Below, piece by piece: positions 4,189 to 42,691 of a stretch of 42,691 bases of DNA. Position 1 is the stretch's first letter. Every line of letters starts with the position of its first letter. The position numbers and the translations under genes are program-made. The stretch covers positions 1-42,691 of the forward strand of contig JADFPP010000024.1 in the NCBI GenBank assembly GCA_022562275.1, in the 5' to 3' direction. The stretch comes from Bacteroidota bacterium. Its GTDB lineage: Bacteria; Bacteroidota; Ignavibacteria; Ignavibacteriales; Ignavibacteriaceae. The notes below the pieces were generated by a model. The model was not told where the DNA came from. It was given only the letters and a program-made list of their open reading frames with translations, and ran no database searches.

Positions 4189-4259
4189 AACTTTTTTCTA
4201 AACAATTCTGTTGCCTGAATTCTGAGAAGAATAATAATTAAAAATGATTGGGCTAAAAT

Positions 4260-4772
4260 TTAGAATATTGGAATAACATAGGTTACTGCCAGGCTCTCTA
4301 CACCCGGATTTTCTACGCCTAAAGTAGCATTAGAAATATGATTAAAACTAACTCCAACTCTTGCACCGTTAACAAATTTAAATGAGATTTCAATCTGTGA
4401 TTGGAATTCAAGAGCAAATTTTAAATCCTTACTGTTATTTTTTGCATATAAACCCGGGGCAAAGCTTGGTGTAAGAAACAAAAAATCTGTGAGTTGAATA
4501 TCATAGTAAAGACCCAAATAAATATGCACTGCACCTTCCGTATTTACCATCACTCCGCTGAAGGGATGACCTCCCAGTTTAACTTTGCCTAATCTGAATT
4601 CAACTCTGCTTTCAAAGGAAGGATCGGTTTGCTGAAGAATATCAAACACCGCCGAGGAGATTGCAATATAGTTTCTATCCTGTGCAAATGAATATATTGA
4701 TGAAAGTGCAACAATAGTTATCACTAAAGTTATGCTTTTTATGCTGGAAAAATATGTGTGCAATAAATCCAA
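4260..4772 (-). CDS. PagL-like lipid A 3-O-deacylase (acyloxyacyl hydrolase family)
   Basis: The 170-residue protein has an N-terminal signal segment (about 15-30, ending SIYSFAQ), then alternating beta-strands typical of a small outer-membrane barrel, and ends in an aromatic residue. Near the C-terminus lies HISNA followed by NPGVES: His145, Ser147 and Glu159. The spacing (H+2 = S, H+14 = E) equals that of the Pseudomonas PagL catalytic triad (H126, S128, E140). PagL removes the 3-O acyl chain of lipid A from the outer membrane and so tunes endotoxin structure and permeability. Neighbours give no pathway link. The overall assignment rests on the triad, size and topology rather than on global similarity, which cannot be measured here. 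Confidence 0.72.
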   Translation of the reverse strand: MDLLHTYFSSIKSITLVITIVALSSIYSFAQDRNYIAISSAVFDILQQTDPSFESRVEFRLGKVKLGGHPFSGVMVNTEGAVHIYLGLYYDIQLTDFLFLTPSFAPGLYAKNNSKDLKFALEFQSQIEISFKFVNGARVGVSFNHISNATLGVENPGVESLAVTYVIPIF

Positions 4773-36295: not shown

Positions 36296-39200
36296 TTATT
36301 TAACTTCCGGGAATTCAATAGTGAAAATAGCTCCCTTAGCTTCTTCGCTTTTTACTGTTACAGTTCCACCCAATACTTCTATAAACTTTTTAGCTAATGT
36401 CAATCCAAGCCCCGTACCTTCATATTTACGACTATTTCCTTCACTTGCCTGCCTGAAGGGTTGAAAAATCAATTTCAATTTTTCTTTAGATATGCCAATG
36501 CCCGTATCGGTTATTTGTATAGTTGCGTTTCCGTTAGTAAAAACCTTTATACTAATACTTCCTTTTTGAGTAAACTTTATGCTGTTATCCAAAAAATAAT
36601 GAATTGCTCTGCCGAACAATTTTTTATCTACATTACAATAAATCTCTTTACCGTTACTCTCAAAATTAAATTTCAATCCTTTCTTTCGGGCAGCTTGCCG
36701 GCTGGAATAAATACTTTCCTTTATTGCATCTAAAATGTTTACTTTATGTTTGCTCATATTTAGTTTATCTGATTCCAGCATCGAAAGATCAAGTATAAGA
36801 TCAAGTGTTCTCGATAGTCTTTCGCCGCTTTGCAGTATGCTTTCCGCCATCTGTTTCTTTTCTTCATTTTCAAGTTCCTCAACAAGCATTTCTGCAAAAC
36901 CGGTAATGCCTATTAACGGTGTTCTTAGTTCATGGCTCATGTTTGCGAGGAAGTTAGATTTAAGATGGCTCATCTCTTCGGCTTTTTCCTTCGATTCGAT
37001 TAATTCCATCTCAATTTTTTTCTTCTCAGTTATATCTTCTTTAACCGCAAGAAAATGTGTGATTTCTCCTTCTGCATTTCTAATAGGTGAAATGGATGAA
37101 GATTCCCAATAGAGTTCACCGTTCTTCTTTTTATTTCGAATTTCTCCATGCCATTCATTTCCTGACTTGATAGTATTCCAAAGATTTGTATGTTCTTCAG
37201 GTGTGGTCAAACCGGATTCTAGTATTCTTGTATTTTTTCCAATTACTTCGTCGGAACTGTACCCGGTTACCTCCGTAAATTTCGGATTGACGTATTCTAC
37301 ATTACCCAGGGTATCAGTAATAATTATCGTGGCTGAACTTTGTTTTACGGCGCTCGATAGTTTACGAAGTTCCTCCTCTGTCCGGTTGGTAATTATCGCT
37401 TTGGCAATTTGTGACGAAACGTATTCAAGTAAATGCAGATCATTCTTACTATAAGCATTTGGGTCAGAATAATGCTGAACAACCATTGCACCGATTGTTT
37501 TATTCTCGATAATTAATGGAACACCAAGCCAGATGGGTGATTTTGTTCCAATTGCTTCTACTTCTCCTGTTTTGAGTAATTTTTCCTGAGCGGCATCATC
37601 TAAAAACAATGACTTACCCGTTCTAAGAACATAAGCTGTAAATCCCTTACCGGGCTTCGCATAATCCTGATAATCATCTATCTCATCTACAAAATAATCA
37701 AAGCTAAGCAGGTCCTTTTTATCATCATAGGAAGCAATGAAGAAATTATCCGCAGGCATAACTGAGACAATGATCTTATGAACGGATTTATACAGATCAT
37801 CAAGTGATTTGGCTTTATCCGATGCTTCTGAGATTTGATATACGGCGTTTTGTAACAATTCGTTTCTTTTGCGCCTGGTTATATCGTGAATAATTTCCTG
37901 GATAGAACTATCCTCAAGTTTTTCAATGCTAGACTCCACCGGGAATATACTCCCATCCTTACGCTTTATATTGCGTTCAAATCTAAGATTGTCTCCTTCT
38001 TGTAGTTGACCAAAACGCTGTTTGGCAATTTCCTGTTCTTCGGGTGTTGGATAAGTATCAATGATGTTAAGTTGATAAATTTCTTCCTTAGTATAACCAA
38101 GCAGATTACAGGTTTTCGTATTAGCCAAAATAAATTTACCGTTTGAATCTGTACGAAATATGCCATCAGGAGCCTGCTCAATTAACTGCCGAAATTTTCT
38201 TTCACTTTCCATCAGTGCATTCTGGCCAAGCTTCTGCTCAGTAATGTCTTCGAAAACCCCTTCGTAATAGGACACATTCCCTTCTTCATCGGTTACGGTT
38301 CTTGCACTTTCACGTAAATCTACAACAGTACCGTCGGGTTTTTTCCATTCGATTTCAAAACCGTGTATAGTGCCCTCACTATCCATAATTTCTCTAAATC
38401 TTTTTCTTTCGGAAGGATCGCAATAACCATCCGCAAAGTTTAATTTAAGTATCTCTTCCAATGAAGAATAACCTAATAAATTAAGTGCGGCAGGATTAGC
38501 CATAATAATTTTGCCTTCGGGAGTTGATCTATAAATACCCATCGAGGAATTTTCATATAAACCCCGAAATCTTTCTTCACTTTCCCGCAGTGCTTTTTCT
38601 GCTTTTTTACGTTGGGTGATGTCTTTCGCTACCAGTACTGCTCCTTGAATTTCATCAGAGTCATCCCGCATAATGGAACCCGAAATTAATACCTGGATTT
38701 TCTCGCTGTTCTTAGTTACCAGGGTTCTGTCCACATCCCAGAATACTTCTTCTTCTGAAAAAAGTTTTCCAAAACGGGTAACACCGATGAATTCCCACAT
38801 TTCTTTTCTTGAGGGGTCTTGAATGACACTTACGACATGCGTATCACCATCAATTTGAAGTGGGAACAGACCCACTTCCACTGCAAACGTTGTTCCGTCC
38901 TTACGTTGAGCTTTTAGTAACTGTCCTTTTCCCATATATCTCGGACTAGGACTTGCCATAAACCCGACCCGCTTTTTTTCGTGAGCGTCGCGCAGTTTAG
39001 CAGGCAGCAACACATGGATCATTTTTCCAATTAGTTCGCCTTGATCATATCCGAAAATAGATTCCGTCTGTTCGTTTACCATCACGATCTTCCCATCCGA
39101 ACCGACAATAACTGTTCCCAGGTGTGCTGTTTTCAGCAGAGACCAAAAGTCTTCCGGATCACGATCATAAATAATCTGCAATTTCTTCTCAACCATGGAA

Positions 39201-40438
39201 AGCACCTGTTCTGTGAAAACTTCCTCTTTTCCTCCTTTCCCAAAAACCGTTTCAATTGGTTTTCCTATCAGTTCATCTTTTGAATATCCTAATAGTGTGA
39301 CGGCGGCAGTGTTGACAGTCTGAATGGTTGCATCAGGAGCGACCACAAATAGTGCGTCAGTCATAGAAGTAATGATATTCTCCATGTAGGCTTTAGATGT
39401 TCGCATCGCATCCTCCGCTTGTTTGCGTTCTGAAATATTCCGTGCAATGCCAAAAACCAAAGTATTTTCTTTAATTTTAACAGGGAAGTTTCTAATCTCC
39501 ACGGTTATTTTTTCCCCGTTTTTCCTATTAATGATAAACTCTTCCGGTCCGGTTGGGTCTCCGAGTGCATTTTCGGCTAATAGCCGTGCTGCTTTTACTG
39601 CATCGCTTATGTTTAATAGTTTTAATCCTAAAAAATTCTTACCTATCAACTCTTTTCGTTCATAGCCGCTTAATTCCTCTGCTGCCTTATTGCAGTTAAT
39701 AATAGTTCCTTTTAAGTCATGTAAGTAGAAGGCATCGGGAGCATAATCAAAGATTACATTAAACTGTTCTTCCGAAGTTTTAAGACTATCTTTGATTCTG
39801 CTATAATCCGTAATATCTATCGAGTGCTCAATAGTTTGTTCGGGGATTTCTATATTACTTCCGCGCGTACCTTTAAATTTTCCGTTCTTATCATACACTG
39901 GCTGGCAGGTATGTTTTATCCTTTTTACTTCATTGTTCTGTGTAACAATCCTGAATTCCAGTTCCGATATTTCCATAGTGTTTTTAACTTCGTCTTCAAG
40001 ATGCCTTGTAACTCTTTCAAGATCATCCGGGTGAATGATTTTCTTCATAAGGGAGGGATTTTGTTTTAAATCTTCAACAAGATAGCCGGTTATCCTTTCG
40101 AATGCAGGAGATAAATAATGATAACCACCTTTATTGTTTTTCCAAAATTCCCAGTTGCTTGCTTTGTCTGCAATTGTTTTGTACCTGAACTCAAAATCCT
40201 GCAATTCTTCGGTTGATTTTTTCTGCTTATTAGCATAAGCTGCTATAACACTGCCGAAAAGGAAAAAATAGAGAATGATAAGGATCCTGATAAACAATTT
40301 ATGTTCGGGCATATCAATAATTAAGAGATCCAAAAAACTTTTCCCCGAAAAGAAAAGGTGGTCAAGAAAAGCATCGGATATCCATACGAGCATACCGGCT
40401 AAAATTGAAAACGCAATAACTTTAAAATCAAATTTCAT
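36296..40438 (-). CDS. Multi-PAS/GAF histidine kinase, 1380 aa
   Basis: Two membrane helices (about 7-28 and 48-68) lead into PAS domains at about 83-215, 222-340, 350-605 (one PAS with a second nested at about 411-560), 622-735 and 745-855, a GAF domain (about 865-1015), a PAS (about 1022-1138), then HisKA with His1169 (NMSHELRTPL) and a HATPase (N box DNSIKFT, G1 DTGIGI, G2 GTGLGLTLAKK). It is a membrane-anchored sensor kinase with no receiver domain of its own. It lies 66 bases downstream of the receiver-containing chimera, which is a likely partner in origin. Signals sensed are unknown. Confidence 0.88.
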   Translation of the reverse strand: MKFDFKVIAFSILAGMLVWISDAFLDHLFFSGKSFLDLLIIDMPEHKLFIRILIILYFFLFGSVIAAYANKQKKSTEELQDFEFRYKTIADKASNWEFWKNNKGGYHYLSPAFERITGYLVEDLKQNPSLMKKIIHPDDLERVTRHLEDEVKNTMEISELEFRIVTQNNEVKRIKHTCQPVYDKNGKFKGTRGSNIEIPEQTIEHSIDITDYSRIKDSLKTSEEQFNVIFDYAPDAFYLHDLKGTIINCNKAAEELSGYERKELIGKNFLGLKLLNISDAVKAARLLAENALGDPTGPEEFIINRKNGEKITVEIRNFPVKIKENTLVFGIARNISERKQAEDAMRTSKAYMENIITSMTDALFVVAPDATIQTVNTAAVTLLGYSKDELIGKPIETVFGKGGKEEVFTEQVLSMVEKKLQIIYDRDPEDFWSLLKTAHLGTVIVGSDGKIVMVNEQTESIFGYDQGELIGKMIHVLLPAKLRDAHEKKRVGFMASPSPRYMGKGQLLKAQRKDGTTFAVEVGLFPLQIDGDTHVVSVIQDPSRKEMWEFIGVTRFGKLFSEEEVFWDVDRTLVTKNSEKIQVLISGSIMRDDSDEIQGAVLVAKDITQRKKAEKALRESEERFRGLYENSSMGIYRSTPEGKIIMANPAALNLLGYSSLEEILKLNFADGYCDPSERKRFREIMDSEGTIHGFEIEWKKPDGTVVDLRESARTVTDEEGNVSYYEGVFEDITEQKLGQNALMESERKFRQLIEQAPDGIFRTDSNGKFILANTKTCNLLGYTKEEIYQLNIIDTYPTPEEQEIAKQRFGQLQEGDNLRFERNIKRKDGSIFPVESSIEKLEDSSIQEIIHDITRRKRNELLQNAVYQISEASDKAKSLDDLYKSVHKIIVSVMPADNFFIASYDDKKDLLSFDYFVDEIDDYQDYAKPGKGFTAYVLRTGKSLFLDDAAQEKLLKTGEVEAIGTKSPIWLGVPLIIENKTIGAMVVQHYSDPNAYSKNDLHLLEYVSSQIAKAIITNRTEEELRKLSSAVKQSSATIIITDTLGNVEYVNPKFTEVTGYSSDEVIGKNTRILESGLTTPEEHTNLWNTIKSGNEWHGEIRNKKKNGELYWESSSISPIRNAEGEITHFLAVKEDITEKKKIEMELIESKEKAEEMSHLKSNFLANMSHELRTPLIGITGFAEMLVEELENEEKKQMAESILQSGERLSRTLDLILDLSMLESDKLNMSKHKVNILDAIKESIYSSRQAARKKGLKFNFESNGKEIYCNVDKKLFGRAIHYFLDNSIKFTQKGSISIKVFTNGNATIQITDTGIGISKEKLKLIFQPFRQASEGNSRKYEGTGLGLTLAKKFIEVLGGTVTVKSEEAKGAIFTIEFPEVK

Positions 40439-40504: not shown

Positions 40505-41536
40505 TTAAAAATCAAGTTTTTGTTCTGCTGCTAATTTAAGAATAAAGGCTTTTTTAAGTGCTTTTTCCAACTCAGGAATCTTAACCGGTTTACAAATATA
40601 ATCATCCATTCCCGCCTCAATACATTTCTCTTTATCCCCCGGCATTGCATCGGCAGTCATTGCAACCAACAAGGGACGGTCATCTTTGCTATATTTATCA
40701 CAGATTCTACGCGTGGCTTCAAGTCCGTCCATCTCCGGCATATGAACATCTATAAAGATTAAATCATAAGGTGCCTGCTCAAGAGCTTGCAAAATCTCTA
40801 ACCCGTTGCTAACAATATCCGGGCGGTATCCCATTTTTTGCAGCATTCGCTCTGCAACCTTTTGATTTATTACATTGTCATCAGCAATGAGTATTCTTAG
40901 AGGATACTTATCTACCATCTTTGGATCGAATAGCATTTTTCCCCTTTCTGGTTTGTCGTTTTTTCTCTCTGTACTAAAAACAGAAATTATTTTACTATAT
41001 AGGAAAGACTGCTTAATTGGTTTTACAAGATAAGACAAATTGCCTAATACCTGAATGCCGGTAGACTGCTTTGCAAATAAACGCCCTTTTACACCGAATG
41101 ACAATTCCCTTTTATTATATACAGAGTGGGGCAGAAACGTAAAAAGAAAAGTTGGTGTGGCATCGTGCCTTTCGTTATAGATGCCGAATGGAGACAGAAA
41201 TATACCGATTCGGGCTAATAAAGCATCTGAATATTTATACTCTAAAAAAGCTTTCCCCACATACATTTTACCGGTTATTTCTGCAGACGAGAATACCGGT
41301 CCATGTTCGTAATCTATTTCTGTGGCAACTCTAAACCGGTCATCCAATTGATAATTTACAAGAAAATTCAGATGATGCTGATCGAAGGACCATCTTTTAC
41401 CTGCTGCATCCTTATTATTTACTATGGCTTCAACATCAAAAAAACCGTAAACATTTAGCTTTTGCTGTTGTGGAAAACATAAACTTCCTGCCAGTAATAA
41501 TAAAATAATTACATAGCTAAAATTTGTATTCTTCAT
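40505..41536 (-). CDS. Chimera: signal peptide, half outer-membrane porin, then response-regulator receiver
   Basis: 343 residues. Residues 1-22 are a Sec signal (ILLLLAGSLCFPQ), and 25-172 are beta-strands of a porin-like barrel (KLNVYGFFDVEAIV, YVGKAFLEYKYSDALLARIG, FLSPFGIYNERHDATPTFLF, STGIQVLGNLSYL). From about residue 183 (IISVF) the sequence becomes a linker and a receiver domain: LRILIADDNVINQK (Asp219/220), phospho-acceptor Asp263 (FIDVHMPEMDG), Thr294 and Lys316 (CKP). The linker and receiver are homologous to those of the PAS-receiver gene at 41947. A receiver normally works in the cytoplasm, so the signal peptide is contradictory. Most likely an in-frame fusion of two genes by deletion; whether a product is made is unknown. 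Confidence 0.7.
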   Translation of the reverse strand: MKNTNFSYVIILLLLAGSLCFPQQQKLNVYGFFDVEAIVNNKDAAGKRWSFDQHHLNFLVNYQLDDRFRVATEIDYEHGPVFSSAEITGKMYVGKAFLEYKYSDALLARIGIFLSPFGIYNERHDATPTFLFTFLPHSVYNKRELSFGVKGRLFAKQSTGIQVLGNLSYLVKPIKQSFLYSKIISVFSTERKNDKPERGKMLFDPKMVDKYPLRILIADDNVINQKVAERMLQKMGYRPDIVSNGLEILQALEQAPYDLIFIDVHMPEMDGLEATRRICDKYSKDDRPLLVAMTADAMPGDKEKCIEAGMDDYICKPVKIPELEKALKKAFILKLAAEQKLDF

Positions 41537-41946
41537 TGCAGTCCCACGTAATATATAAAAATCATCTTCTTAATTATTTATAAGACTAACTATTATTTAA
41601 TTAGGAAAGCCATTAACGGTAAGTATAGCTGCTGTCCTAAAATATTTAATCCGCCATATTCTTAAAAACAATTAGTATGCCATCGGGCTAAAGTTTTTGT
41701 GATCCTTTGTCTGAAATTCTTGTAGTCCTTAGTCCTACAGGGTATATAGTGTTTTAATTTAAGTTGGGAATTAGAATAGCAACGCGGTGATTAATTATAA
41801 ATACAGAAATGTTTTGATATTTATTTATTCAATCAATTGTTTATAATTGCGTACGATGTGATATCTGGTCTGCTTTCGAGATCCATTTTTTATGACCAAC
41901 ACCTTAATTTATTTTGCTGAATTACCCAATTATATACTCAACCCTT
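41537..41946. other. Gene-free 410-bp gap
   Basis: No credible coding frame, hairpin with T-run or strong repeat is visible on either strand. It is AT-rich and would contain the promoter for the chimera gene, whose Sec-signal part begins at 41536. Confidence 0.5.
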
Positions 41947-42691
41947 TCATTCTTCAACAAGCTGAAATGAAGTGGTTTTTTCGAGCACACTGATAAGTTC
42001 AGAAATTATGATTGGTTTACATACATAATCATCCATCCCGGCAGCAAAGCATTTCTCTTTATCCCCCTTCATTACATCTGCAGTCATTGCAATTATCCGT
42101 GGGCGATTTTTTTTCTCATAGTGTTTACAGATCTTCATAGTCGCTTCATAACCATTCATTTCAGGCATAATCACATCCATAAATATTACGTCATAAGGTA
42201 CCTGCTCAATTGCTTTTAATACCTCAAGTCCATTGCTAACAATATCCGTACGGTAACCCATTTTTTGAAGCATACGTTCGGCTATTTTCTGGTTTATCAC
42301 ATTATCTTCAGCCAATAGTATTCGTAAAGGATACATAGCACCCATATCAGGATTAATTATAATTTCTTCCTTTATTTTTATATTATCTTCTTCTTTAGGT
42401 TTAAAAACTGAAATCATCGCTTCGTTAAACAATAACTCATCGGAAACCAGGTTGTATTTTAAGACCTCTACATTGCTGCCGCGGGCGCCCATAAATTTTC
42501 CGTTTTTATCGTACACCGGCTGGCAGGAATGTCTTATTTTTTTTACTTCTTTATTCTGTGTAACAATTCTAAATTCCATTTCAGATATTTCCAAAGTGTT
42601 ATTCGTCTCATCTTCAAGATGCTTTATAACCCTTTCAAGATCATCCGGGTGAATGATAGTTTTTATTAACGAAGGCTTCTGTATTAAATCT
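41947..42691 (-). CDS. PAS-receiver protein, 5' end outside the window
   Basis: The frame stays open to the right edge, so the gene starts beyond it. Visible order: the end of a PAS domain (IIHPDDLERVIKHLEDE, then MEFRIVTQNKEVKKIRH, PVYDKNGKF) closely matching the first PAS of the large kinase (residues 130-195), then a linker (MISVFKPKEEDN) and a receiver (LRILLAEDNVINQK, phospho-acceptor Asp in FMDVIMPEMNG, Lys in CKP). No kinase domain lies between PAS and receiver, so it may receive phosphate from the neighbouring kinase or be a deletion product of a hybrid kinase. Residues of the acidic pocket and the conserved Lys are all present. Confidence 0.75.
   Translation of the reverse strand, partial: DLIQKPSLIKTIIHPDDLERVIKHLEDETNNTLEISEMEFRIVTQNKEVKKIRHSCQPVYDKNGKFMGARGSNVEVLKYNLVSDELLFNEAMISVFKPKEEDNIKIKEEIIINPDMGAMYPLRILLAEDNVINQKIAERMLQKMGYRTDIVSNGLEVLKAIEQVPYDVIFMDVIMPEMNGYEATMKICKHYEKKNRPRIIAMTADVMKGDKEKCFAAGMDDYVCKPIIISELISVLEKTTSFQLVEE

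Follow-up and report, generated by a model that had tools for sequence, protein, structure and literature searches.

The frame on the minus strand at positions 40505 to 41536 of the window (i.e., the whole stretch of 42,691 nucleotides analyzed here) runs from a porin N-terminus into the tail of a hybrid histidine kinase, and we regard it as probably a chance, fairly young in-frame chimera with an inert product. In the mechanism we propose, the setting would be a tandemly duplicated, rearranged two-component locus, where codons 1 to 168 of a gene for a 16-strand porin, reaching to the end of beta-strand 6, would have become linked to a hybrid histidine kinase tail. On the kinase side, the join would fall 2 to 3 residues before the KP motif of the first receiver (REC1), and the parts retained from the kinase would be a REC1 stub, a linker, and an intact second receiver (REC2). 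The fusion looks like the young outcome of a rearrangement in a single genome and not like a novel class of periplasmic signaling protein.

One open frame carries parts of two genes

The chimeric frame, comprising porin N-terminus, REC1 stub, linker, and REC2, spans 343 codons with no internal stop, and the window contains zero N; the original prediction of a single open frame and of an intact fusion was therefore right. Hydropathy and alignment with relatives identified a signal-peptide-like N-terminus (residues 1 to 22; 41471 to 41536, minus strand, as for all features below unless stated), a hydrophobic stretch typical of the signal peptide that had been predicted. Within it, Pro22 (41471 to 41480) aligns with the A/S preceding the mature porin in relatives, and may mark erosion of the porin part's signal-peptidase site.

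To locate the junction, we compared where homology to each parent stops. Matches of independent porin relatives end at residues 166 to 168 and those of independent hybrid-kinase relatives begin at residues 168 to 170, which places the join at residues 168 to 170 (window positions 41035 to 41027). Relative to the fusion point proposed originally, the position shifts slightly upstream, from residues 172 to 183 (about 40988 to 41020) to 168/170. Of the kinase, the frame contains a REC1 stub and REC2 only, and the combination of HisKA and HATPase in the same protein that defines a hybrid histidine kinase is absent.

The porin part covers six of 16 strands

The porin part proper (residues 23 to 168; 41033 to 41470) was delimited by homology and by an AlphaFold model of a full-length Zixibacteria porin (L050). 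Residues 1 to 168 of the fusion are about 60% identical to this porin, and residues up to 168 share 46 to 61% identity with porins of Zixibacteria, KSB1, Calditrichota, Eisenbacteria, and Lutibacter. The L050 model has 16 strands (pTM 0.77) and matches the porins VhChiP, OmpT, and OmpC. Since fusion residue 168 aligns with L050 residue 165, the end of strand 6, the fusion holds six of the 16 strands plus a long loop, and not the "about eight" strands of the original prediction. The last porin strand (..SIAVAF in relatives) is missing, as the frame ends in the receiver instead; it is in this last strand that BAM is described as recognizing the beta-signal (PMC10945584). Judged by sequence, i.e., a signal peptide followed by porin-family sequence, the fusion belongs with the 16-strand porins; judged by the barrel, i.e., 16 strands and a C-terminal aromatic beta-signal, it does not. 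The porin part keeps 41 of the 45 columns that are invariant in porin relatives, like other members of the family.

We also considered an OmpA-like small barrel, which would need a closed barrel of eight strands (to our knowledge, the smallest natural barrel). This candidate was ruled out by the strand count, by the mostly low confidence of the porin half in a structure model of the fusion, and by the missing beta-signal.

The C-terminal part derives from a two-receiver hybrid kinase

The REC2 domain (residues 213 to 332; 40541 to 40900) was identified by profile match, alignment, and structure model. Response_reg (PF00072) matches residues 215 to 327 (E 1.5e-25), and the acidic pair (D219/D220), the phospho-acceptor (D263), T294, and K316 are all present, in agreement with the claim that every catalytic residue of a receiver is retained; the combination of profile match and residues qualifies it as a receiver domain. 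In the model of the fusion, REC2 has a pLDDT of mostly 84 to 98. Every close relative of this receiver is the REC2 tail of a large (~1,150-aa) hybrid kinase with two receivers, which identifies the C-terminal part of the fusion as REC1 stub, linker, and REC2. Accordingly, alignment with 89 hybrid kinases delimits the REC1 stub (KPIKQS..SVF; LVKPIKQSFLYSKIISVFS) at residues 170 to 188 (40973 to 41029), and the REC1-REC2 linker follows at residues 189 to 212, an order shared with about 90 aligned hybrid kinases; both elements had been overlooked in the original prediction.

In REC2 trees, the fusion groups with a neighboring PAS-REC gene (support 82/90 and 82/34), a grouping that is only moderate owing to the 82/34 support in the second tree. 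Relative to this sister, REC2 has a dN/dS of about 0.15; the branch leading to the fusion does not exceed the sister's in length and shows no acceleration. A tree constrained to place the fusion receiver among the kinases of the porin operon was rejected (AU test, P = 0.0066), so that the join links two different loci. A deletion inside one porin/PstS-like/hybrid-kinase operon, made attractive by some porin relatives that adjoin a receiver-bearing hybrid kinase, was discarded on the same test.

Relatives keep the genes separate

The original prediction had named separate genes in relatives as evidence against a new fusion, and this is what we found at all close porin relatives with a complete locus: a full-length porin, then a PstS-like gene, then a separate histidine kinase. 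The order porin, one or two small PstS-like genes, kinase, all on one strand, occurs in L050, L063, L073, L128, L059, L178 (G495), L179 (G200), L180 (G055), and L177 (G003, same genus), with porins of about 355 aa (417 aa in G003); complete loci span Zixibacteria, KSB1, Eisenbacteria, Lutibacter, and Ignavibacteriales, and one further locus (L062) is cut by a contig end. Porin searches of 59 relatives, 395 phylum genomes, and 164 order genomes (partly overlapping sets) returned no porin-receiver fusion, and the fused frame was absent among the best 80 matches of a scan of GTDB species. Likewise, a 301-base junction probe matched a single copy, and of six genomes of the genus only this one contained it. 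A conserved porin-receiver fusion gene was therefore rejected, there being no second case within these scopes.

One seeming fusion, in L063 (match at residues 9 to 329), resolved into two separate frames, one for a porin and one for a kinase. This KSB1 contig (porin, PstS-like gene, kinase) has identical 141-base ends (1 to 141 and 4200 to 4340), and is thus either circularized or a single tandem-repeat unit; its kinase frame continues from the contig end into the contig start.

The porin/PstS-like/kinase operon itself recurs across several phyla (L050, L063, L073, L128, L059, and L177 to L180) and comprises a 16-strand porin, one or two PstS-like (TIGR02136/PBP_like_2-like) proteins, and a HAMP/PAS or hybrid histidine kinase. 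It may constitute an outer-membrane-linked anion-sensing system; a literature search found no description of a porin/phosphate-binding/hybrid-kinase operon.

The surrounding locus is duplicated and rearranged

The window is an entire contig of a 148-contig draft genome, and its end overlaps the end of another contig (C46) by 127 bases with one mismatch, which suggests that the two are neighbors. Reading through this overlap, the order is NarL-type regulator, REC, REC, TM-PAS-REC, NarL regulator remnant, porin-REC, TM-PAS-(PAS)n-GAF-kinase and then, farther along, a gene for a cNMP-binding (Crp-like) protein. On C46, a very long sensor-kinase frame of 2,517 aa (L201 7319-14872) lies immediately upstream of this duplicated locus.

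The PAS-REC gene (41947 to 42691) is cut by the contig end and continues as TM-PAS on C46, giving a TM-PAS-REC gene without kinase domains (41947-42691 plus C46:69382-69849, i.e., L201 17383-17850). Its REC, like that of the fusion, is preceded by a REC1 stub, here a degenerate one. Its TM-PAS is a diverged copy (dN/dS about 0.15) of the TM-PAS of the downstream kinase (TM-PAS-(PAS)n-GAF-HisKA-HATPase, without receiver; 36296 to 40438), which begins 66 bases past the fusion and whose first PAS shares 81% DNA identity with that of the PAS-REC gene. Between the PAS-REC gene and the fusion lies the 3'-end remnant of a NarL-type response regulator (41829 to 41889), which is 81% identical to the C46 copy (alignment score 61, against no more than 34 for any of 200 shuffles) and also matches a same-genus locus (L195); from its sequence, we read this remnant as the leftover of a tandem duplication. 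In the same-genus genome G003, the arrangement occurs once (NarL-type regulator, REC, kinase, short gene, Crp-like gene) and includes no porin. On this sequence comparison, the locus is best described as a tandem duplication with losses plus a foreign porin fragment.

An imperfect palindrome, TGTAGTCCTTAGTCCTACA (41721 to 41739, no strand assigned), resembles TGTAAGACAAAGGACTACA (other strand) in front of the C46 receiver gene; the two are possibly binding sites of the NarL-type regulator itself.

The REC1 stub suggests a young join

A REC1 stub has no possible receiver function inside the fusion, and its state of preservation can be set against that of the neighbor's. The match to consensus is 0.58 for the fusion's stub, equal to the median of intact hybrid kinases, and 0.16 for the stub of the PAS-REC gene; REC2 matches the consensus equally well in both (0.65 and 0.66). 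As the fusion's stub is undecayed and the neighbor's has decayed, the porin join appears younger than the neighbor's truncation, and it is probably young. Such youth would explain the conservation of both halves, which thus needs no present function.

DISCUSSION

We propose that the signal peptide would direct export of the full-length product, that this product could form no barrel, with only part of the strands and no C-terminal beta-signal, and that its receiver would lie in the periplasm without a phosphodonor; for these reasons, the protein would be inert and degraded. The original point that topology forbids ordinary receiver work holds for the full-length product, as the frame starts with a signal peptide. 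Two observations count against an inert chimera, namely (i) the conservation of both halves described above (41 of 45 porin columns; receiver dN/dS of about 0.15), which young age explains, as selection on the receiver also would; and (ii) one of the better ribosome-binding-like sequences ahead of an internal ATG, M201.

The latter underlies the main rival and single live alternative, which we consider somewhat unlikely: ribosomes would begin at M201, the porin part would be a leader only, and a free ~143-aa cytoplasmic single-domain receiver (DivK/CheY-like) would be phosphorylated by the downstream kinase. A role as response regulator, which depends on a cytoplasmic site within reach of a kinase or phosphotransfer protein, would need such an internal start, given that the frame opens with a signal peptide, and the prediction that an internal start yields a free receiver fits M201 (AAAGGGG-AAAA-ATG; 40934 to 40947), which precedes the receiver domain by 12 residues. 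The Shine-Dalgarno-like AAAGGGG lies 4 bases ahead of the ATG, with an anti-Shine-Dalgarno pairing energy (canonical 16S end assumed) of -7.1 kcal/mol compared with -3.9 for the frame's own start; of 154 internal in-frame ATGs across the window, only 2.6% reach this strength. Also in favor are the intact catalytic residues and unaccelerated evolution of the receiver, the downstream kinase without a receiver of its own just 66 bases away, and the separate single-domain receivers found at the corresponding place in C46 and in the same-genus L195. As evidence for initiation, however, the signal is suggestive only and weak, since M201 is one site among several ATGs tested; a purine-rich linker would yield such sites by chance, the neighbor's aligned position is ATT rather than ATG, and the receiver's conservation could reflect mere recent descent from a hybrid kinase. 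A literature search on internal starts in hybrid kinases gave no matches.

That the junction is an assembly or chimeric-read artifact is distinctly unlikely, even though the draft is in 148 contigs with the window being one of them, the locus is repetitive, a contig end lies 1.1 kb away, one base differs between the overlapping ends, and the join was seen in one genome only. A misjoin by a graph assembler requires a shared word. The 127-base overlap of the contig ends indicates assembly words of apparently about 127 bases, and the parents, each of which matches its own family as far as the join, share at most a few bases there, far fewer than such a word. In addition, the junction contains no N, the 301-base probe across it is single copy, and neither a PstS-like gene nor an orphan porin C-terminal half (searched with a full-length porin-family model, E 1e-8) was found in the genome, which is rated 100% complete. 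The missing porin half, the lack of Ns, and the lack of a long shared word thus speak against a misjoin. As for a whole protein that is made, exported, and functional, with a six-strand outer-membrane or periplasmic anchor displaying in the periplasm a receiver that engages a partner or takes its phosphate from a small-molecule donor, the intact frame and receiver residues are in its favor. Against it stand the low strand number with the last strand and beta-signal missing, the failure of any relative searched to keep the fusion, and the expectation of no periplasmic phosphodonor; a phrase search of the literature for "periplasmic receiver domain" found no paper. A working periplasmic receiver is therefore very unlikely. 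The new periplasmic receiver of the original prediction is unsupported in view of the separate genes in close relatives, the incomplete barrel, the rearranged duplication, and the young-looking join; the intact fusion, the topological limit, and the consequence of an internal start stand.

A periplasmic receiver, if true, would overturn a basic rule, and the evidence points away from it. As a chance chimera, the fusion would instead show clearly how reshuffled domains in two-component loci can end up in one frame, with both parents, the junction, and the debris of duplication still legible, and it is a caution that intact catalytic residues do not by themselves prove that a fusion protein is used. 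If M201 were used, the locus would illustrate how a hybrid kinase gives rise to a free receiver behind a foreign leader, here beside a kinase that has none.

Among known systems, the fusion resembles 16-strand general porins (Porin_4, PF13609, which one porin relative matches with E 1.2e-8; chitoporin VhChiP and OmpC-like folds) in its homologous N-terminal 168 residues (46 to 61% identity), and differs from them in lacking 10 of the 16 strands and the C-terminal beta-signal. It shares with OmpA-type proteins (8-strand barrel plus periplasmic domain) the order of outer-membrane part first and soluble domain after, but has six strands, no beta-signal, and a cytoplasmic-type receiver in place of a peptidoglycan-binding domain. 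Its C-terminal part aligns end to end, at up to about 56% identity, with the REC1-REC2 tails of large hybrid histidine kinases (BarA/HrmK-like; cyanobacterial and Ignavibacteria), although it lacks the sensor, HisKA, HATPase, and most of REC1, and a signal peptide and porin sequence precede what is left. Finally, the receiver has the fold and residues of single-domain response regulators such as DivK and CheY, and the product of an internal start would be of this type; unlike those proteins, the receiver here sits inside an exported frame.
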